Of a DNA stretch of 64,000 bases, positions 1 through 9,763 are shown one piece after another. The translations under genes and the position numbers were made by a program. Positions within the stretch are counted from its first letter, which is position 1, and each line of letters starts with the position of its first letter. This DNA is from Corynebacterium urealyticum DSM 7109. Its GTDB lineage: Bacteria; Actinomycetota; Actinomycetes; Mycobacteriales; Mycobacteriaceae. The notes beneath the pieces are model-generated. The model saw only the letters and a list, made by a program, of their open reading frames with translations, was not told the origin of the DNA and searched no databases. Location of the stretch: contig NC_010545.1 in NCBI RefSeq assembly GCF_000069945.1, positions 2,294,001 to 2,358,000 of the forward strand. The letters run 5' to 3'.

Positions 1-488
1 TCAGACCAGCGCGAACGCTCTTCGTCACTAACTTCGTCATCAAGCCGGGGAGCCAACCCGAAGCCGGCCGCATCAGCCTTCCGGTAAAGCCAGCCAATCT
101 GATGCCGGACAGAAACATGGGCCTTCACCTTGCCCCGCCCTCCCTTCCGGGGCTCGGCATACGTCGGGTTGGCCACCAGCTCAAAGCGCCACCGCTGCCC
201 ACGGGTGAGCTTTCCCAGGAACCTGGAGTAGTCCGCAGTCTGCGCAGGAAGCGTGTCCCACCCAGCCTGTTCCACTAGAACCGCGCCCGTCGGCTTCTCT
301 GGGCCCACCACATAAAGCACGTGCTCGTGCTCACCTGGATCCACGCGCCACAGCACTCTGGCGTCCGATTCGTCCAGCTCGGGAGGGAATGCGGCACGCA
401 CCGCGGCGTGCATGCGCTGCGGGTCACTCAGTAGCTTTCGCCCTTCCCTCCGGTGAGGATTGAGCTGAATTTTCGTGAATGTCGTCAT
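1..488 (-). CDS. cas6e: Cas6e/Cse3 crRNA endonuclease (partial, 3' end off the window)
   Basis: Cas6e cuts the repeat stem-loops of the pre-crRNA in type I-E systems and stays on the crRNA as part of Cascade. An open frame of 162 codons begins MTTFTKIQLNPHRR and is still open at base 1, so the C-terminal part of the usual 200-230 residues is missing. The ATG overlaps the cas5e stop by four bases (ATGA), which implies translational coupling. The start resembles the family's N-terminal strand and the segment RFLGKLTRGQRWRFELVANP fits a Cas6e core, but the call rests mainly on position as the last gene of the cas3-cse1-cse2-cas7-cas5-cas6e order. cas1, cas2 and the array would be expected further left. 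Confidence 0.88.
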   Translation of the reverse strand, partial: MTTFTKIQLNPHRREGRKLLSDPQRMHAAVRAAFPPELDESDARVLWRVDPGEHEHVLYVVGPEKPTGAVLVEQAGWDTLPAQTADYSRFLGKLTRGQRWRFELVANPTYAEPRKGGRGKVKAHVSVRHQIGWLYRKADAAGFGLAPRLDDEVSDEERSRWS

Positions 489-1207
489 GCTCGCATCACC
501 GTTTCAAAAAACACGTCACCCGTCGCGGACTTCTCGTCACCATCCGGATTGTCAATCTCCACGTCCTCGGCACGGATCACTTCCCGCCACCCGTACTTTC
601 GGTGCTCCGGGCTGAAGGACACCGGCACGTCCTGGCGGGGAACCGAGCCACCCTCACCGGGGTTGGCATCTCGGTAAATCGCCAAAGACACCTTCTTCGG
701 CGACTCCTTGCGGTGCACCGCGGTGGCGTGCCACGTGTCGTGCGCGCGCAGGGCAGACTCCGCGTCGCCATCCACCACACCGATCACAAGGCCAGGGTGC
801 ACTGGGCAAGACCGGCGACCCATGTACAGCGGGTAAGCGGGTCTGCGCAGGGCCTCCGCCATCTGGTCCAGCAGCTCCCGATCTTCCGATTCCACCGCCG
901 CGACGAACGCCGCATCTGAGAGGAAGTACCTGGTCACGAGGCTGGCGTTTGCTCCCGGGTTCTTCAGCCAGGGCTGCGCCGTCTGGTAGTCCCGCAGCAG
1001 GCTCCCCGACTGATCAACACGCACTGCCATCCGCAATTTGGCCAGGTCCTCCACGCCGTCAGTACGGCGCCGCCCCTGCGCAGCCGCGATCAGCCCCACG
1101 ATGCCGGACTTGGTTGGCGTGGTGGCCGTCGCCCGAACACTGAAGCGGGACTCGTCGCCCCAGGACTGCATGGGACCTTTGAGTAGTAGTAAGAGGGAAT
1201 GAGCCAT
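485..1207 (-). CDS. cas5e: Cas5e/CasD, Cascade subunit
   Basis: Cas5e caps the 5' handle of the crRNA in the Cascade surveillance complex. The 240-residue protein starts MAHSLLLLLKGPMQSWGDES, the typical Cas5 N-terminal strand followed by the P-Q-S-W-G signature; a G-rich segment GIVGLIAAAQGRRR follows near residue 35. Length is normal for Cas5e. The start codon overlaps the cas7e stop by one base (TAATG) and the stop overlaps the cas6e start by four, so these three genes form one tightly coupled translation unit. Confidence 0.93.
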   Translation of the reverse strand: MAHSLLLLLKGPMQSWGDESRFSVRATATTPTKSGIVGLIAAAQGRRRTDGVEDLAKLRMAVRVDQSGSLLRDYQTAQPWLKNPGANASLVTRYFLSDAAFVAAVESEDRELLDQMAEALRRPAYPLYMGRRSCPVHPGLVIGVVDGDAESALRAHDTWHATAVHRKESPKKVSLAIYRDANPGEGGSVPRQDVPVSFSPEHRKYGWREVIRAEDVEIDNPDGDEKSATGDVFFETVMRA

Positions 1208-2337
1208 TACTCATCACCCATGAGCTGATCGATGGCGCCGGCCAGCTGCTCCTTCAGCTCCGGAAGAGTCACCTGGGTCGCGATATCGGTGAACGGCTCC
1301 GCCAGCTGCCCCAGGCCCATGACGAAGGAGGCCTGCGGCTTGAATCCATAGACGTTCTCCACGTCCCGAGCCTCCTGAGCCAGTACCTCGGCACCGACCT
1401 CGCGGCGGCCCTTGTCCTCGGTTGCTTCGACAGGAGCCTCGAAGGCGTTCACCAGGGAGACGGGGCGGGTATCGCGAACCGCGACGTAGACGAGCTCCGG
1501 CAGGGTCTGGTTAGCGAAGGTGTTGATCTTTCCGGTCGGCATCGACGCGATGAAGGCCTCAACGAACTCCACGGCAGCCTGCTTCGCTGCGTCCTCGGAG
1601 TCCAGGTTCTCGGCCAGACCCTCCAGGTTGACGGTGGCGTAGCGGTACAGCGTCGAGGACATCATCTGTACCGTGCCGATCATGCCAGCACCGGTCTCTT
1701 CACCCTCCTCGGCGAGGTCATCGACGGCGGTGAAGTAGTCGAACTCCGGGGCGGAGTCGTGAATCCCGAGTGCGTGGGCGACCTGCACAGCGGCGTCGAC
1801 GTTGTATGCAGCATCGTCGGCAACCATGCGGCCGAACATGGCGATATCCACCGAGTGCTCCTGGTCGAGGATCGCCTGCGCCTCGCGCTTGGTGAAGTTC
1901 TTACCGTCGCGTTCCTGGATCGCCTTCACCGCGTTGTCGATCTGGTGAGCGCTGAGGAACAACAGGTAGCCGGTCTGTGGGTAGGCAACCTCTGCGTCGG
2001 TCTCGTCCTTATCCTTAGGCTTCTTCTCGACGGCCGTCTTAATGCCAGCTGCCTTGAAAAGCTGTTCGGTTCGCTCGATCGCGGTGCCCTGCTCCATGCC
2101 CTGCTCTTCGAGCTGACGTGCAATCTTCTCCGGGAGTCGCTTGGAACGGTCGCCGATGTTGGCGGCGTCGAAGTTTTCGAAGAAGTAGCGGCGAATCGCA
2201 CGCTTCCAGGACTGGGAGGAGACGCGCTGGCGCGGCACGCCGCCAAAGATGGCGTTCTTCGGCACGCCCGTGTCATCACGGTTAATCAGGGACGGCGGCA
2301 GGGACTGGAGAGCGTAGATATCAATGATCTTGGACAT
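1207..2337 (-). CDS. cas7e: Cas7e/Cse4/CasC, Cascade backbone subunit
   Basis: Cas7e polymerises along the crRNA spacer to form the Cascade backbone. The 376-residue protein opens with IIDIYALQSLPPSLINRDD and contains RQRVSSQSWKRAIRRYF, both characteristic of the Cse4/CasC family, and a central GAGMIGTVQMMSSTLYRYA segment. The ATG is preceded by GGAAGGAATCACC, a good ribosome binding site. It lies 48 bp after cse2, the widest gap inside the Cascade block. Confidence 0.94.
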   Translation of the reverse strand: MSKIIDIYALQSLPPSLINRDDTGVPKNAIFGGVPRQRVSSQSWKRAIRRYFFENFDAANIGDRSKRLPEKIARQLEEQGMEQGTAIERTEQLFKAAGIKTAVEKKPKDKDETDAEVAYPQTGYLLFLSAHQIDNAVKAIQERDGKNFTKREAQAILDQEHSVDIAMFGRMVADDAAYNVDAAVQVAHALGIHDSAPEFDYFTAVDDLAEEGEETGAGMIGTVQMMSSTLYRYATVNLEGLAENLDSEDAAKQAAVEFVEAFIASMPTGKINTFANQTLPELVYVAVRDTRPVSLVNAFEAPVEATEDKGRREVGAEVLAQEARDVENVYGFKPQASFVMGLGQLAEPFTDIATQVTLPELKEQLAGAIDQLMGDE

Positions 2338-2385
2338 GGTGATTCCTTCCGGATTAGTGGTCGACGGTGTCGTCGTGGTGGTTGT

Positions 2386-3081
2386 TTAGGACTCTTCGGT
2401 GTTGGCTCGGCCGCGGAATGTACCGTTGGCGAAATCTCGACCCCATCGCAGGAGCACGCCGTTACGCCGGCGGGGGTTCTGCAGGCTTCGCAGGTCCTGC
2501 GCAAGCTGCCCGTAGTCAAAGCCAATCTTCTTGTCTCGCAGCAGCGCAATGAGATTGCGCAGGTGGATCATGCGCGTGTCCTCGTTAAACGCGGACTGCA
2601 TCGCGTCAAACCTCGGTTTGATCGACTTCGATTCCACCGTGGCGTGCAGCCGACCGCAGGCCGCGGCGAAAGACTGCTCCGAGTTATGCACCTGCTGCTG
2701 GGAACTCTGCATGTGCTGGCCGAAAAGAGTGAGTGCATAGAACGCCGCGCGCTCAGACGGGGATGCGTGGTCCGACTTCCCCTGCTCCCTTTCACTCAGG
2801 GGCACGAGCAGTGCCATGAGTACGGATTCCAGCGCGAGGGGGTGGTTCTCCAGCTTGAGGGCTCCCGCCTTACGGAGCTCGGCCAGCGTCCCGCGCGCGT
2901 TTGCTGCCGCAGTGTTCCCACCCGCGAGGTAGTCGCGCTGCAGGATCTCTGCCGTGCGCCCGACCGCAAATTTTAGGTTGGGGCGCTGCTCCGCGGGGGT
3001 GGCCGCCTCCGCCGTTCCAGTGCCCGCCACGTCCGCAGCCACACCGGGTGACGGAGCGGTTGCTTTAAGATCGCTCGCCAT
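2386..3081 (-). CDS. cse2: Cse2/CasB, Cascade small subunit
   Basis: Cse2 forms the inner belly dimer of Cascade and stabilises the R-loop. I place the start at the ATG giving MASDLKATAPSP, because AAGGAGAAGGCA stands directly before it; an upstream GTG at 3099 would add six residues. The protein is then 231 residues, somewhat longer than typical Cse2 because of an Ala/Thr-rich N-terminal extension. The conserved part is helical and basic (EREQGKSDHASPSERAAF; MIHLRNLIALLRDKKIGFDYG). It overlaps the end of cse1 by 17 bases. Confidence 0.88.
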   Translation of the reverse strand: MASDLKATAPSPGVAADVAGTGTAEAATPAEQRPNLKFAVGRTAEILQRDYLAGGNTAAANARGTLAELRKAGALKLENHPLALESVLMALLVPLSEREQGKSDHASPSERAAFYALTLFGQHMQSSQQQVHNSEQSFAAACGRLHATVESKSIKPRFDAMQSAFNEDTRMIHLRNLIALLRDKKIGFDYGQLAQDLRSLQNPRRRNGVLLRWGRDFANGTFRGRANTEES

Positions 3082-4747
3082 TGCCTTCTCCTTCTTCACT
3101 CATCGTTTTCTGTGGGGCGGTAAGGGGTAATTCCTTGTTGAGTTTTCGTTTGAGTTGCTGAAATGCTGTGCCTGCATTGATGACGCGGCCGCCAGAGTCC
3201 TCGTCCAGGAGCCTGCCGATCAGCGCCTTTTGACCCGCTCCGTTTAGCAGATCCTGGGCGATGCCCAGCGCTGCCTCACGTACGGTGTGCTGCCAGGAAC
3301 TCACTTCCTGTGCCATATTCTTCGGATCCAGTCCCCGCAGCCAGTTGTGGAAACGGGGCTCCAGCTGGGCATAGAGGCGGTCGGCGGCATCGACACCGAA
3401 TTCGTATTCTCCGCCGGCAGCCACGTAGAGCTGGCCAGCGAAGGCGCCCACCGCGGTCGCCGCCCGTCCCGTGGCCTCAGCGCTGTTACGGACATCATTA
3501 CGAACCGCGCGGCTCCACTCAGAGTTCCGGAGCAGATGCACTGGAAGCCCGATGGAGGAGCTCACGATTGTGCCGTAAGTGGAGCTCTGCGGGCCATAGG
3601 CCATGGACACAATCTGCAGGTCGAGGACCTCCCGATCCTCGAGGATTCTCGCGACGTTATCGACATTCTCCGGCCTTTTCGGCGGCAGCTCCCGGCTTGA
3701 GAAGCCTGGGTCTCCGTCCACCGCAACAAGGGCATCCAGCGAGCGCCAGGTAGTTCGCTGTTCGTCGTATGGCCGCGGGTAGTAGGCCTCGAAGCCCTTC
3801 TTGGACTTGTTCTTACTGAACCTATACGGAGTCATCGGGTCGCCGAAGACGTTCAGCCCAGCATTCGGAATGCGATCGCCATTACTCACCAGCACCCGGG
3901 TGACCACACCATCTTCGGTGAAGAGCCGGATCCTGCGGGACTGCCACGTCGCCAAGTCCGCCGGCCCCTTCGGCTGAGTGGCTTCCAGGTCCTGAGGCGC
4001 GGCGGTATCGGGCTCGCGCTCCCACACCGGCTTATCCGTCTCAGCGGCAGTGGGAATACAGGACTCCGTGGTGTTCAGCACGAGGGTCTCGAGTAGATTG
4101 GCCCCCCTGATCACAGTTCCACCCGTCAGACCAGACCAGCCCTGCCCGATGGGGTAGCCCCTGCCTCCCTTGACCCGTGGATCCCCCACGGCCCCGGACT
4201 TAATACCCGAGTAGTCGTAAGCCTGGGCATGGATGAGCCAGCGTGCCGCTTCGTCATAGCTGATCGACACTCGGCCTGGCCCGGTGCGCATGGTGAAGTA
4301 GCTATCCTCCGAATCCGGCAAGATCCGGCGGATCTCGTTGCTGGTGTTCTTCGCCGTATGAAGGTCAGCTACCTGCATGAAGGGCACCGTCGGGTCCAGC
4401 AGGTCGAAGCGGTTCTCGACGTCAGCCAGGTACCCGAGCACGACCTCGTCCTTCCCCGTCTCCCGCAGTGTTTCCCTCGTATCGAGGAACCACGTTTCCC
4501 ACTCAAATTTCTTGCGCGACCGTGGGCTCGGGTAACGCCGCACAAAATCGTGGTAGTGCGCCCGCCAAAATATGGCGAGTAATACCCGCAGCACCGCGTA
4601 ATCCTGCGTGGGGGAATCCCCAACGACGGCTAGCGGCTTCGCACTGCCGTCGAACACCTGGCGGATGCTCAGCAGCTGGTTTCCCTCCGCGGTCCGGCAC
4701 TTGATCCACGGTTCATGCACGAGGTTAAAGGTCTCGTTACTTCCCAC
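3065..4747 (-). CDS. cse1: Cse1/CasA, Cascade large subunit
   Basis: Cse1 recognises the PAM and recruits Cas3. The 560-residue protein has the hallmark start FNLVHEPWIKCRTAEG and then the YAVLRVLLAIFWRAHY helix; length is normal. The start is a GTG with AAAGGAG upstream. The gene is separated from cas3 by 163 bp, so Cascade may have its own promoter: an AT-rich stretch at about 4800-4830 is the best location. The end overlaps cse2. Confidence 0.93.
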   Translation of the reverse strand: MGSNETFNLVHEPWIKCRTAEGNQLLSIRQVFDGSAKPLAVVGDSPTQDYAVLRVLLAIFWRAHYHDFVRRYPSPRSRKKFEWETWFLDTRETLRETGKDEVVLGYLADVENRFDLLDPTVPFMQVADLHTAKNTSNEIRRILPDSEDSYFTMRTGPGRVSISYDEAARWLIHAQAYDYSGIKSGAVGDPRVKGGRGYPIGQGWSGLTGGTVIRGANLLETLVLNTTESCIPTAAETDKPVWEREPDTAAPQDLEATQPKGPADLATWQSRRIRLFTEDGVVTRVLVSNGDRIPNAGLNVFGDPMTPYRFSKNKSKKGFEAYYPRPYDEQRTTWRSLDALVAVDGDPGFSSRELPPKRPENVDNVARILEDREVLDLQIVSMAYGPQSSTYGTIVSSSIGLPVHLLRNSEWSRAVRNDVRNSAEATGRAATAVGAFAGQLYVAAGGEYEFGVDAADRLYAQLEPRFHNWLRGLDPKNMAQEVSSWQHTVREAALGIAQDLLNGAGQKALIGRLLDEDSGGRVINAGTAFQQLKRKLNKELPLTAPQKTMSEEGEGNGERS

Positions 4748-4910: not shown

Positions 4911-7736
4911 TCACTCCCTTGGCTTAGCCATGACCTCAAGGCCCAGTTCAGAGCTGTATCGGACCAGGAACCTCCCAATCTCGGCCTCTCCCTTCTCATC
5001 GAGGCGAAGTGCCAACTGCCCCTTGAGAAGGAAGTGCTCCTGCCACTCCGGTGGTGTTTCTTCCTCCAGCTGGGTGACGACCGCGTCGAAGTCCTCGTCC
5101 CAGCGCGTCATCCGAGTCGGGAGCCGAACAGTGCTCATGGCCAGATCCCAGGCCTGCTGGAATTCGGGCGTAACTCCGCTCAGAATCTCCACGGAGTGTT
5201 CAGCGCTCCGCGGGGTCAGGGGTCGGTAGCCATAGTCAGTGATCATCACTGGAATGACCTCGACGGTCGGCTCGCTGTCACGGACCTGTGCCGCACCCCG
5301 TTCCTCATCTCCCAGTGACTGCGCCGCAGCATTAAGGCCACGGAAGAGCGATTCGAACTCCTTCGCATCGGAGGCAGCCGGAACGCGGTACGTTGCGGAC
5401 CGCGCGTGCGCTCGCGCCTCCCGGCTTCGGCTCTCACGTTCTGCCTCTGCCCAGAGCTCAGCCCACTCCTGCGGGATCGCGTGGATATTCCCGTACACCG
5501 CCTCCACCAAGGGGGCGGTGTCGTCCGGCCGTCGGAATCTTTCCGGCAGGTGCAGCAGGGTGGCAAGGAGAATTTTGGGGTCGTAAATCGCCTGAGCTCC
5601 CTTATCGATTTCCGGCACGCCGTCACGGTCCACAACACCGCGGATAAATACCTGCGGTTCCCGCAGCGCTGCCGGCCTGTCCGACGTTGGCCGCTGGTGG
5701 CGGTGAATGCGCCCGATACGCTGAATCACCAGGTCCATGGGAGCCAGGTCGGTGATCAGAACGTCGGCATCGATGTCCAAGGACTGCTCCGCGACTTGGG
5801 TTGCGACCACGATCTTCCGCGCAGGCCTCCCGGCTCCCCGGCGCGCCGCAGGCCCAAGCTCCTCGCGCAAACGGTCCTCGCGTTGCGAGCGCTCCCAAGC
5901 CATGAAGCCCGCGTGGTGCAGCTCAACCTCATCCGGATAGGCCTCGGCGAGCTCCTGGTATGCCTGCTGTGCACGCGCGATCGTGTTGCAAATAACCAGC
6001 GCACAACCGCCCTCAGCGAGTAGCTGATCAAGCAGCGCCCGCAGCTCCACGAGCTCGTCCCCGATGACCTGCAGGCTCGCGTCGAGATTCCGCGGCGACG
6101 GTTCCGGTTCCCAGACCTCGTCTTTCTCCTCCGTGACCACCGTGATCCGCGGGTATGCGGAGGACTCGACCCTCAGCGGTTCACCGCTGTACGCCTCCGC
6201 GAGTTCCTCACGCTGCCGGGTGGGCAGCGTCGCGGTCATGACGATTACGCTCGCCCCGTAGTAGGCGAGCCAGGAGAGGGTGGTTTTGAGGTAGTCGGAG
6301 GTATAGGCGTCGTAGGAGTGAACCTCGTCGAAGATAATGACCTTCCCCGCTAGCGCGAGGTGCCGCAGCATGGAGTAACGCTGCACCAGCGCCAGCATGA
6401 GGACCTGGTCCACGGTGCCGACGACGATATTGGAGAGCAGTCCGCGCCGTCTTCCGCTCATCCACTGGCTAGCAACGACTTTCCCAGCAGCGCCGCCTGC
6501 CTCATCTTCCGCGATTCCTTTGTACTTCAACGCCCGGTAAGGTTCCGCGAGCTGGTTCTTCGAGTGCGCCAGGTACAAGGACGCCACCGTGTCGCCGGTC
6601 GTCCCCTGCGCCCAATTGATAGTGCGGTCGAGCAGCCCATTGGCGGTCGCCATCGTCGGCGCGGCGAAGTAGACGCCCTGGACGCCATCCTCGGCCCCGA
6701 GCTGATGGGCCGCAGCGAGTGCGGCTTCGGTTTTACCCACCCCGGTTTCCGCTTCCAGGATGTACAGCGCTGGCCCCTCGGTAGCCCGTGCAGCCTCGAC
6801 CATGGTGCGTTGCACGCTGCGGGCGCAGAATTCTTCTGGCCACGAGAAGGACCGCCGGAAGAACTCATCGACATCCTCAGCAGGTTCTGTGGGTTTCCAT
6901 GGCAGGGTGATGTCGGTTTTCGCCATGCCACTCTCCAAGCGTTGCGGCATGGGCTGAAGGGCAAGTGGGAAGGCGTCGACGTTGGAGGCAATCCAGTCCG
7001 CGAAGACGACGATGCCGGTGAGCAGCTGCAGCTCCGGAGCTCGAGGTGTGGACATCTTGCTCAGAACCGGTTTAATTTCCGTCAACTCAGCGAACCCGTC
7101 CAGCAGTTCCTTATGGACCGCCCTCCAGGCCTGCGGATAGTCCTTCAGGGCGTCCTCAATATCCCGACGGAGTTTCTCATCTGCCGGAATTCCATGGTGA
7201 GCACCAACGATGGAGCGCAAGCGTCTACGCATAATGCTGGACACCGAGGTCTCCGACTCAAGCCACTCCCCCAGCATCGCAGCGGAGGCCACACTGTGGG
7301 GCATGGCCGGTAAATCGGCCTCTCGATACCCAGTGTCGAGCGGTAGCCCGGCGTCCGAGACTGCGTTAAGCAGGTAGTCATATCCAGGCTTTTTCTCCAG
7401 CAACCGCTGGAAATTGACACTGGCCTTCCCGGAATCATGCAATCCAGCCAGCCACGTCACGAGGCGGCGCAACTCCCCCACGTCAATACCCAACTCGCCA
7501 CTTAGGTCATTCTTTGTCGCATCCGCGACCCAGATATCGAAAACCTCCCCGGCGGTCGCGGCCACATCCGCCAGGTGTTGCGGCAGATTGAGATACTCCC
7601 CCTCTTCCCCAGACTTCGCCCACAGTGCCGCGAGCTGAGGGCTCACTCCACGCAACCACGCATCAAGCTTGCTGATAAAAGCATCGCGCGTGTTGGGAGT
7701 GTTCGAACTCCCAAAGCCATATCCGGGGAAAGTCAT
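4911..7736 (-). CDS. cas3: Cas3 helicase-nuclease (type I-E)
   Basis: Cas3 is the HD nuclease and 3'-5' helicase that degrades DNA bound by Cascade. The 941-residue protein has an N-terminal HD domain (H54; H100-D101 in LHDSGKAS; H180-H181 in GAHHG) and then superfamily-2 helicase motifs: Walker A ETGVGKTEA near residue 330, DEVH at 470-473, MTATLP near 505 and QRIGRIHRH in the last third. All catalytic residues I looked for are present, so the gene looks intact. I chose the ATG of MTFPGYGFGSS because GAGGATTGT precedes it; a TTG 28 codons upstream (7820) also keeps the frame open. It is first in the operon and faces the mini-CRISPR region. Confidence 0.94.
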   Translation of the reverse strand: MTFPGYGFGSSNTPNTRDAFISKLDAWLRGVSPQLAALWAKSGEEGEYLNLPQHLADVAATAGEVFDIWVADATKNDLSGELGIDVGELRRLVTWLAGLHDSGKASVNFQRLLEKKPGYDYLLNAVSDAGLPLDTGYREADLPAMPHSVASAAMLGEWLESETSVSSIMRRRLRSIVGAHHGIPADEKLRRDIEDALKDYPQAWRAVHKELLDGFAELTEIKPVLSKMSTPRAPELQLLTGIVVFADWIASNVDAFPLALQPMPQRLESGMAKTDITLPWKPTEPAEDVDEFFRRSFSWPEEFCARSVQRTMVEAARATEGPALYILEAETGVGKTEAALAAAHQLGAEDGVQGVYFAAPTMATANGLLDRTINWAQGTTGDTVASLYLAHSKNQLAEPYRALKYKGIAEDEAGGAAGKVVASQWMSGRRRGLLSNIVVGTVDQVLMLALVQRYSMLRHLALAGKVIIFDEVHSYDAYTSDYLKTTLSWLAYYGASVIVMTATLPTRQREELAEAYSGEPLRVESSAYPRITVVTEEKDEVWEPEPSPRNLDASLQVIGDELVELRALLDQLLAEGGCALVICNTIARAQQAYQELAEAYPDEVELHHAGFMAWERSQREDRLREELGPAARRGAGRPARKIVVATQVAEQSLDIDADVLITDLAPMDLVIQRIGRIHRHQRPTSDRPAALREPQVFIRGVVDRDGVPEIDKGAQAIYDPKILLATLLHLPERFRRPDDTAPLVEAVYGNIHAIPQEWAELWAEAERESRSREARAHARSATYRVPAASDAKEFESLFRGLNAAAQSLGDEERGAAQVRDSEPTVEVIPVMITDYGYRPLTPRSAEHSVEILSGVTPEFQQAWDLAMSTVRLPTRMTRWDEDFDAVVTQLEEETPPEWQEHFLLKGQLALRLDEKGEAEIGRFLVRYSSELGLEVMAKPRE

Positions 7737-7821
7737 ACAATCCTCACTACTTCCGGTGGTGAACATAACCATAGCTACTTCACAGATCGAAAGCAAGCAT
7801 CTCGAACCCCTTTCTAACAAT

Positions 7822-7861
7822 CCCCAATTTCCCAGTTATTTTTTAAAGTTACGCCCGTAAC
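7822..7861 (-). promoter_or_regulatory. Probable cas3 promoter with palindromic operator
   Basis: About 85-125 bp upstream of the cas3 ATG the minus strand reads TTTAAAAAATAACT, the best -10-like AT block. Just upstream of it lies a perfect 5+5 inverted repeat GTTAC-GCCC-GTAAC at 7848-7861 (as read on the plus strand), where a regulator could cover the -35 region. TTGGG at 7827-7823 (minus) matches the first five bases of the spacer-like segment in the neighbouring mini-CRISPR. No regulator can be named. Confidence 0.4.
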
Positions 7862-7886
7862 CTTCCTGGGGCGTACTCTTGAGCAC

Positions 7887-7986
7887 GCTCCCCGCAGCTC
7901 TAGATCCGGCGGGGATGAGCCTTGGGACATTGGCGAATGCGCCACTTCCCCGCGCTAGCGGGGATCCCCAAGGCTTCTTTTCTTTT
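7887..7986 (+). CRISPR. Degenerate two-repeat CRISPR-like unit with terminator-like end (possible creR/creA-type RNA)
   Basis: Two segments carry the type I-E repeat core. The first (7887-7921) has CCCCGC pairing with GCGGGG and ends GCGGGGATGAGCC, like many I-E repeat 3' ends, but has a 13-nt loop instead of about 4. The second (about 7943-7970) contains TCCCCGC-GCTA-GCGGGGA, the classical I-E stem, followed by TCCCC instead of the usual handle. Between them is a short spacer-like stretch of about 21 nt containing its own TGGCG-AATG-CGCCA hairpin. AGCCTTGGG (7918-7926) and CCCAAGGCT (7967-7975) pair around the inner stems, and TTCTTTTCTTTT follows, as in a factor-independent terminator. It lies directly upstream of cas3. 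It could be a relic array, a Cas-guided regulatory RNA, or a structured leader of gltS. Confidence 0.5.
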
Positions 7987-8024
7987 CGACCCACCCAACC
8001 GCAAAACCTCACTCACACCCACCC

Positions 8025-8057
8025 TTCGATTTCGCATAACGCGCGTTACACCATAAT
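8025..8057 (+). promoter_or_regulatory. Candidate gltS promoter with palindrome
   Basis: CATAAT at 8052-8057 is a plausible -10 element for gltS, about 200 bp before the start codon. A perfect 12-bp palindrome TAACGCGCGTTA at 8037-8048 sits immediately upstream, where a repressor could block polymerase. A further stem-loop, CCCGCTT...AAGCGGG, follows at about 8079-8098 in the presumed leader. Confidence 0.35.
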
Positions 8058-8254
8058 GTGAGACAGCGCACGCCTTCCCGCTTTTTAGCAAGCGGGCGTT
8101 CAGGCAACACTGGTGGAATACCCAGAAACATCGTATTCTTCCCAGAAACGGCGTGATCCACGCCACATCCCCGCCCCGTTCGAGCATGACTCGCCGGGGC
8201 CCGCACTTTTCGCTCGGGAGATCCCCGCGCCGGAAACAGACCCAAGGAGGAACA

Positions 8255-9763
8255 TTGACACCCAATCAAGTCGGCCTAGCGCTGGTGCTGCTAGGCGTGA
8301 TGGTCTTGCTGGGCAAGACCATGCGCATCAAGTGGGGTTGGACCCAAAAGCTGTTCCTCCCTGCCTCCATCCTTGCTGGTTTCCTCGCACTCTTCCTCGG
8401 CCCTGAGGTCTTCGGCTCCATCGCCTCGGCTCTGGGCACGGATCGCTTCGCCGAGGGCGGCCTCTTCGGCGAGGAGACCCTCGCCGTGTGGAAGACCCTC
8501 CCCGGCCTGCTGATTTCCGTGGTCTTCGGTACCTTGTTCCTCGGCCAGAAGCTGCCGAAGCCGAAGGAAGTCGTGGAGCTTGCCGGCCCGCAGCTCTCCG
8601 TGGGTGTGGCCTTCGCCTCCGGCCAGTACGTCGTGGGTATCGCGCTGGTGACCTTCCTGCTCGCCCCACTGTTCGGCATCAACGAGGCCGCCGGTGCGCT
8701 CATCGAGATCGGCTTCGAGGGTGGCCACGGCACCGCTGCCGGTATGCAGTCTGTCTTCGAGGACATCAACTGGGCTGAGGGCTACGACCTCGCCGTCGCC
8801 GTCGCCACCGTTGGTCTGCTCTCCGGCATCGTCATCGGCGTGGCCGTCATTAACTGGGCCATCCGCACCGGCCGCACCGAGGTGATCACCGAGGTCAAGG
8901 ACCGTTCCATCGAAGAGCAGCGCGGTCTGTTCCGCCGCGATGAGCAGTACATGGCCGCGAAGATGACAACGCGCCCGTCCTCCGTCGAGCCGCTCTCCCT
9001 CCACGTCGCCTTCCTTGCTGTAGCAATCGGCGTCGGCGTGATCCTGCTGAAGGCCCTGCAGTGGGTCGAGCAGATGCTGTGGATCGACAAGATCGAGCTG
9101 CTGAGCTACGTCCCACTGTTCCCGATGGCCATGATCGGCGGCATCGTCGTCCAGCTCGGCCTGAACTTCCTGGGCTACGAGCACCTCATCGACCAGAACA
9201 TGATGCTGCGCATCCAGGGTCTGGCTCTGGACCTGCTGATCACCGCCGCCCTGGCGACGATCTCCCTGCAGGCCATCGCTAATAACTTCTGGGCATTCCT
9301 GATCCTGTGTGCCGGCGGCATCCTGTTGAACGTCTTCCTGCTGCTATGGCTGGCGCCGCGCTCCATCCCGGAGTACTGGCTCGAGCGTGGTGTCGGCGAC
9401 TTCGGCCAGTCCATGGGTGTCACCGCAACCGGCCTGATCCTCATGCGCATCGTCGACCCGCAGGCGGAGTCCCCCGCTTTCGAGTCCTTCGGCTATAAGC
9501 AGCTGGTCTTCGAACCCTTCTTCGGTGGCGGCATCATCACTGCCGTATCCATCCCGTTCATCATTGCGGTCGGACCACTCCCAGTCTTGGGTGTCATGAC
9601 GGCGCTGTTCATCTTCGCCATCGCAACCGGCCTGTTCTACTGGGGCCGTAAGTTCGGCATCGACCGGTCCAAGGCCGCTGGTGGTACCAAGGCCTTGGGC
9701 AACCACAAGGCCAACATGGAGGCCAAGGCGGCCGCCGCGGCTGCTCAGCAGCACAAGGACTAA
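8255..9763 (+). CDS. gltS: Sodium/glutamate symporter GltS
   Basis: GltS imports glutamate with sodium across the cytoplasmic membrane. The 502-residue protein is highly hydrophobic with about a dozen membrane segments. It has the family-typical pore-loop regions GFEGGHGTAAGMQSVF near residue 150 and GVGDFGQSMGVTATGLILMR near residue 385. The start is the TTG preceded by AAGGAGGAACA; the frame is open 34 codons further upstream but those codons are Arg/Pro-rich and non-membrane. The C-terminus is a charged, Ala/Lys-rich cytoplasmic tail. A strong terminator follows. Confidence 0.88.
   Translation: MTPNQVGLALVLLGVMVLLGKTMRIKWGWTQKLFLPASILAGFLALFLGPEVFGSIASALGTDRFAEGGLFGEETLAVWKTLPGLLISVVFGTLFLGQKLPKPKEVVELAGPQLSVGVAFASGQYVVGIALVTFLLAPLFGINEAAGALIEIGFEGGHGTAAGMQSVFEDINWAEGYDLAVAVATVGLLSGIVIGVAVINWAIRTGRTEVITEVKDRSIEEQRGLFRRDEQYMAAKMTTRPSSVEPLSLHVAFLAVAIGVGVILLKALQWVEQMLWIDKIELLSYVPLFPMAMIGGIVVQLGLNFLGYEHLIDQNMMLRIQGLALDLLITAALATISLQAIANNFWAFLILCAGGILLNVFLLLWLAPRSIPEYWLERGVGDFGQSMGVTATGLILMRIVDPQAESPAFESFGYKQLVFEPFFGGGIITAVSIPFIIAVGPLPVLGVMTALFIFAIATGLFYWGRKFGIDRSKAAGGTKALGNHKANMEAKAAAAAAQQHKD

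Follow-up and report, generated by a model that had tools for sequence, protein, structure and literature searches.

CreR RNAs (cas-regulating RNAs) have reportedly been described by Liu et al. (2023) for CRISPR-Cas types I-B, I-E and V-A. In two reviews they are crRNA-like RNAs encoded beside a cas operon, which use the cell's own Cascade and have partial complementarity to the cas promoter region, and their repression is relieved by crRNA abundance or by anti-CRISPRs (PMC12737573, PMC12948488). The unit described here, a degenerate mini-CRISPR of Corynebacterium urealyticum, appears to share with them the place beside the cas operon, the crRNA-like RNA, the use of the cell's Cascade and the partial complementarity to the region upstream of cas. 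It also resembles CreA of the CreTA system, which in the accessible portions of its reports has two degenerate repeats, the first being the more degenerate, and a seed at positions 1-5 and 7-11 for a PAM-flanked promoter target (PMC8501985, PMC9458426); CreA requires these positions (PMC8501985). The RNA anti-CRISPR Racr is likewise a repeat-like RNA acting on Cas proteins, but is reported to consist of phage-encoded solitary repeats, whereas the present unit is chromosomal, lies beside its own cas operon and has a host target (PMC10651486). Finally, the guide of engineered short-spacer Cascades has been shortened in steps of the Cas7 footprint, and complexes of types I-F1 and I-B bind without cutting, as far as the excerpts describe (PMC7296934, PMC10989794, PMC6828817); the lengths were engineered there and are natural here. 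A 2025 review of actinomycete CRISPR-Cas systems leaves possible regulatory roles still to be found out, at least in its available text (PMC12231136).

The window, meaning the whole 64,000-nt stretch of DNA that was analysed, belongs to a genome of 2.37 Mb in a single contig (G000). The nearest named relative in the searched collection is Corynebacterium sp. HMSC27B11, with a Cas3 identity of 92%. The type I-E locus is complete and runs leftward in the order cas3, cas8e, cse2, cas7, cas5e, cas6e, cas1e, cas2e and then the array. The first gene of the operon, cas3, occupies 4911-7736 of the minus strand (start codon ATG at 7736-7734) and is followed on the same strand by cas8e, cse2, cas7 and cas5e (485-4747); cas6e, recognised by an NCBIfam match, lies with cas1e and cas2e beyond the left edge of the window. 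Left of the window lies the main array, built of 28-nt repeats GTGCTCCCCGCGCCAGCGGGGATGAGCC with a period of mostly 61 nt. The completeness of the operon and the active-looking array, both judged from the DNA, were counted in favour of assigning the unit to CreR.

The mini-CRISPR is found in the chromosome on the plus strand, divergently upstream of cas3, between cas3 and a glutamate symporter-like gene. The first-pass annotation had recognised two type I-E repeat-like stems at this place and suggested comparing them with the main-array repeat. This comparison identifies the stems as genuine relatives of that repeat, since 71 of its copies in the array region (L009) end in GCGGGGATGAGCC and the 3' end of pseudo-repeat 1 (7885-7921) is identical to it. 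Pseudo-repeat 1 has the array stem and an intact handle, ATGAGCC (7915-7921), with a loop of 13 nt instead of the 4 nt of the array. Pseudo-repeat 2 (about 7943-7969, plus strand) has kept an intact stem, CCCCGC-GCTA-GCGGGG, and has lost the array handle, its end being changed to ATCCCC. Both deviations had been noted before and are present. Two more repeats occur about 2.8 kb past the far end of the main array (G000:C1:2285285-2285358, L009), one of them with a GCTA loop like that of pseudo-repeat 2. A search of Rfam with the unit returned nothing above the gathering threshold, the only match being CRISPR-DR28 on the opposite strand at 7946-7969 (19.9 bits against 35).

By sequence the unit has the features of a Cas6 substrate, namely a handle that is the same as that of the array, two intact stems and a cas6e gene in the genome. 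The Cas6e cut sites, which we take to correspond to those of type I-E repeats, were placed by analogy, and the predicted mature RNA between them would be 49 nt long (7915-7963), compared with 61 nt for an array crRNA. The 5' handle of type I-E has 8 nt, so the guide begins one base past ATGAGCC. An E. coli crRNA is made up of 8 nt, the spacer and 21 nt; if the RNA is cut in the same way the guide has 20 nt (TGGGACATTGGCGAATGCGC, 7923-7942, plus strand), which preserves the spacer-like segment first proposed and corrects its length of about 21 nt.

This guide has a match in the cas3 leader. Read from the second base after ATGAGCC, TGGGACATTGGCGA matches TGGGAAATTGGGGA at 7834-7821 of the minus strand, behind the PAM AAC (7835-7837), the full protospacer being 7815-7834. 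Over a longer stretch, TGGGACATTGGCGAATG and TGGGAAATTGGGGATTG (minus strand from 7834) agree at 14 of 17 positions (1-5, 7-11, 13, 14, 16 and 17), with mismatches at 6, 12 and 15. Positions 6 and 12 are those whose bases are flipped out by Cascade, and at the constrained positions (1-5, 7-11, 13 and 14) the match is 12/12. Shuffled guides reached 12/12 in the surrounding intergenic region in only 8 of 300,000 cases, and in 1 of 300,000 with an AAN PAM. Moreover, an exact search of the whole 2.37-Mb genome found the pattern AANTGGGANATTGGNGA once, in the cas3 leader. The earlier suggestion of a seed-like match to TTGGG, at minus 7827-7823 after AAA, was correct as to the sequence; as a target it was rejected, for it comprises five bases only and the register one base on gives the match of 14/17, starting 7 nt upstream. 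The first base of the spacers is C in 36, G in 29 and T in 6 cases in the array of this genome, and C in 194, G in 40, T in 13 and A in 3 cases in arrays of the genus, a bias that fits an AAC-rich PAM.

As described for CreR, two degenerate repeats lie beside the cas operon, and a PAM with limited seed complementarity lies upstream of it. The unit very probably encodes a CreR, that is, an RNA guiding Cascade to autorepress the cas genes, and the first proposal of a degenerate mini-CRISPR RNA that would direct Cascade to the cas promoter region is strongly supported by sequence. We infer from the DNA that the unit is transcribed and cut by Cas6e, that it represses and that it can be titrated. 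The two degenerate repeats of the crRNA-like RNA would be cut by Cas6e and the product loaded into the cell's own Cascade. Guide bases 1-14, minus the flipped-out 6 and 12, would then pair with the AAC-flanked site in the cas3 leader, and Cascade, thereby held at its own operon's promoter region, would lower cas transcription. The fading of the pairing past position 14-16 should protect the chromosome from destruction by Cas3. The repression would be lifted once Cascade is taken up by array crRNAs or by an anti-CRISPR.

In the sister genome (G158) the unit and the leader align throughout, and guide position 5 and target position 5 have both changed from A to G. The same change is seen in L216, which is not an independent witness, as its contig coordinates are those of G158 and the two are very probably one assembly. 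A match to the N-terminal part of the window's Cas3 is present in 102 of the 242 genomes of the genus, and one upstream region was examined in 90 of these 102. A scan of the 90 loci that required neither target nor PAM (exact handle and downstream hairpin, array repeats excluded, 15 to 45 allowed from handle to second stem) yielded 65 units. For 55 of them the locus itself holds a site with one seed mismatch or none; for 10 it does not, which counts against a CreR role, and by our own arithmetic such a site, no PAM being asked, is expected by chance in about 9% of loci. The PAM is AAN in 54 of the 55 although none was required (AAC 44, AAT 6, AAG 3, AAA 1), the remaining one being CCC. With a looser handle and AAN required, a unit and a target with at most one seed mismatch were found in 58 of the 90 loci, 44 of them perfect in the seed, whereas swapped guide-region pairs gave 0/269 perfect matches and 4/269 at that tolerance. 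A stricter earlier scan had given 27 perfect loci and 37 with at most one mismatch, against 36 and 236 of 26,789 for single-guide swaps. In 51 of the 58 the unit is antisense to cas3 and the target lies on the cas3 strand.

These counts bear on a different explanation, that the unit is the decayed end of an old CRISPR array which now serves merely as a terminator between divergent genes and whose promoter match is coincidental. The degenerate repeats and the terminator-like stem would agree with such an origin, as would the arrays that stand upstream of cas3 at the same place in several relatives (e.g. G010, G142, G159 and G067). However, a coincidental match does not account for the excess of guide-target pairs over swaps, for the AAN PAM where none was asked or for the covariation in the sister, and we regard this origin as highly improbable.

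The position-by-position pattern over the 58 loci agrees with what a CreR guide would need. The match rate is near chance at positions 6 (0.34) and 12 (0.24), is 0.88 at 13 and 0.69 at 14, both unused in selection, and then fades (0.57 at 15, 0.48 at 16, 0.21 at 17). The guides form 33 sequence clusters, within which 116 of 118 pairwise seed differences are mirrored in the target, whereas at positions 6 and 12 none of 22 is; the first figure is conditioned on the admission of units with one seed mismatch or none, and the pairs drawn from a single cluster depend on one another. Of 27 differences at positions 13-14, outside the selection, 6 are matched on both sides. As a point against a CreR role, in 11 pairwise cases the target has changed with the guide unchanged.

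When the search was extended to the class, 68 of 394 genomes outside the genus gave matches, mostly weak ones, and among 29 of these loci examined there were 8 units with a perfect seed and 2 with one mismatch (swaps 0 and 8 of 588). A genus-wide pattern search matched 36 of 242 genomes and pointed to the unit of G157. The order-wide search matched 148 of 397; among the matches listed, those other than G000, G158 and G141 seem to be coincidental or to fall in coding sequence, the genomes being GC-rich, and were set aside. The comparisons of fold and RNA length given below omit G101, G208 and G005, three of the 37 units of the stricter scan, as likely false. In a later scan G101 proved to have a convincing unit, other than the one first listed, and the unit of G005 turned out to have relatives in G235 and G083; G208 is still excluded. 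The units of G083, G235 and G005 (L084, L081 and L082) have the handle ATGTTCC and are oriented like cas3, and their targets share that strand; they represent another layout of the device. Examination of the same gap in related corynebacteria, which had been recommended with the first description, shows what the other relatives examined have in common: seed, PAM and position, together with a guide in either of two lengths.

How Cascade would act at the target depends on where the cas3 promoter lies. The best predicted one, TTGCTT-17-TATGGT (7768-7796, minus strand), is uncertain, the rule of the mechanical scan does not detect it, and its place is downstream of the target, 19 bp from the 20-nt protospacer. 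Over all loci such predictions are no better than the null (mean best score 16.55 against 15.9 for shuffled sequence), for which reason a general overlap of target and promoter was dropped. A palindrome read by eye, GTTACGGGCGTAAC (7848-7861), is present between the unit and the target; the version of the sister, GTTATGGGCGTAAC, is largely kept, and it is perhaps a regulator site. With the target upstream of the best predicted promoter and adjoined by this conserved palindrome, it is conceivable that the same RNA and target have another outcome, Cascade binding activating or reshaping transcription or blocking another regulator. This seems unlikely, as the available accounts of CreR and CreA describe repression and the target covers or abuts the predicted -35 in the relatives G010, G119, G130 and G080. 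A toxin gene as the object of repression, with the match in the cas3 leader secondary, would make the RNA an antitoxin of the CreA type, whose design is indeed the same in the accessible text (PMC8501985). CreA represses a toxin, as far as that text goes, but an exact search found no toxin-promoter target here, the sole exact site in the genome being the cas3 leader, and this interpretation is extremely improbable.

Autorepression by a CreR being retained, two details set the unit apart from CreR as the reviews portray it: its guide is 12 nt below spacer length, and its handle and seed form an arm of a terminator-like stem. With regard to length, the distance from handle to second stem over the 65 units is 25-27 in 38, 37-38 in 26 and 40 in 1, and it is 38 in the array of this genome. 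Measurement in 35 units, one of them not being measurable, puts the RNA from cut to cut at about 48-50 or 60-62 nt. When the length label is mapped on a Cas3 tree of the 58 units (35 short, 23 long), which carries a long-branch warning, it needs 6 changes, at least 5 of them forced by well-supported branches, so that a step of about 12 nt appears to have recurred several times. In the units from beyond the genus the distances are again 25-27 or 37-39, plus one at 18-19. The difference of 12 nt equals two Cas7 footprints, and a guide that much below spacer length would build a Cascade with four, not six, Cas7. Interference by short complexes of E. coli is reportedly possible, to judge from how Kuznedelov 2016 is titled. 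Type I-E is in addition less length-restricted in the part of the source available (PMC7296934), so limited complementarity, and not length alone, probably spares the chromosome. For type I-F1 the same text gives a spacer length of L = 6N-4, by which 20 nt fits four Cas7, and complexes of this kind bind and form R-loops and trigger no degradation (PMC7296934). In archaeal type I-B, again from excerpts, spacers of 20-24 nt lead to no interference or priming, and repression is good with 21-24 nt and weak with 20 nt, 44-65% of the mRNA being left (PMC10989794); the last observation counts against a CreR role for a 20-nt guide. A smaller complex may be weaker in binding and outcompeted by array crRNAs.

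The second detail concerns the outer stem, which pairs GAGCCTTGGG, the handle and the first guide bases, with CCCAAGGCTT (7917-7926 with 7967-7976, plus strand) and is followed by a T-tract (7975-7986), in a terminator-like arrangement whose 5' arm comprises the handle and guide bases 1-4. Stem and T-tract had been described at the outset and stand up well. The fold of 7887-7985 has -51.9 kcal/mol and none of 200 dinucleotide shuffles is as stable (z -4.68), nor is any for 7880-7992 (z -3.44); for 7910-7958, close to the mature RNA and not exact at its ends, z is -0.61 and 50 of 200 shuffles fold equally well. A mechanical scan of 7700-8300 found no promoter-like or terminator-like site, its terminator rule admitting only loops of 3-8, which makes it blind to the branched outer stem. 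The arrangement of spacer hairpin and terminator is confirmed for this species and its sister, and the role of the handle and guide bases 1-4 as an arm is particular to these two. The predicted unpaired fraction of the handle is 0.17 in the precursor and 0.84 once cut. Cleavage by Cas6e after 7963 would remove the other arm of the stem, and the predicted folds suggest that the guide may stay inactive as long as Cas6e has not cut.

In G142, G224, G187 and G229 (L016, L028, L040 and L021) pseudo-repeat 1 has a longer 5' side, which pairs with the handle as well; the cut predicted for Cas6e would then fall within a lengthened stem. In the first three of these relatives the handle is thus masked in a different way from that of the window unit. 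A comparison of 34 units with 283 array crRNAs shows the handle of the predicted mature RNA to be more paired in the units (median unpaired 0.29, crRNAs 0.49; p 2e-5), and in the precursor the values are 0.23 and 0.41 (p 5e-5), with flanks that differ in kind. At the level of 20 clusters the masking of the mature handle gives p 0.13. As a general property, masking was kept as a secondary idea only, given this p value and the open mature handle of the window unit.

An unannotated mini-CRISPR was also seen in the Corynebacterium phages Stiles (MK977710, L217 1200-1340) and StAB (MK937613, L218 600-740), Samwavirus phages of C. xerosis. Its two spacers lie between three repeats of type I-E-like form, a terminator-like hairpin comes next, and similar matches are present in 12 Corynebacterium phage records listed, two of which were inspected. 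It may serve as an anti-CRISPR RNA or as a guide array of the phage. Its guides gave no perfect seed match in the 90 cas3 regions, and 8, 14 and 13 one-mismatch matches in three guide readings.

The first-pass annotation knew of no described example of the arrangement, which holds for its details; CreR itself is a published class and only the details are possibly new here, among them the two natural guide lengths, canonical or 12 nt shorter. Among the open-licence papers listed in literature searches nothing was recognised on CreR in Corynebacterium or on two natural guide lengths. We put forward a tentative proposal, the chances of which, taken as a whole, fall a little short of even. The corynebacterial CreRs would be a natural, length-coded guide class, essentially canonical or two Cas7 footprints shorter, giving a second, four-Cas7 Cascade for autorepression beside the six-Cas7 one for immunity. 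In this species the terminator stem of the precursor would hold the handle and the seed fast for as long as its 3' arm is not cut away by Cas6e, so that a Cascade subunit would license the guide that restrains Cascade.

That 58 of the 90 examined loci have such a unit points to RNA-guided self-regulation as a common trait of type I-E systems in corynebacteria. The 33 guide clusters supply dozens of natural co-evolving guide-target pairs, and the two guide lengths make it testable whether Cascade stoichiometry separates repression from cutting in nature.
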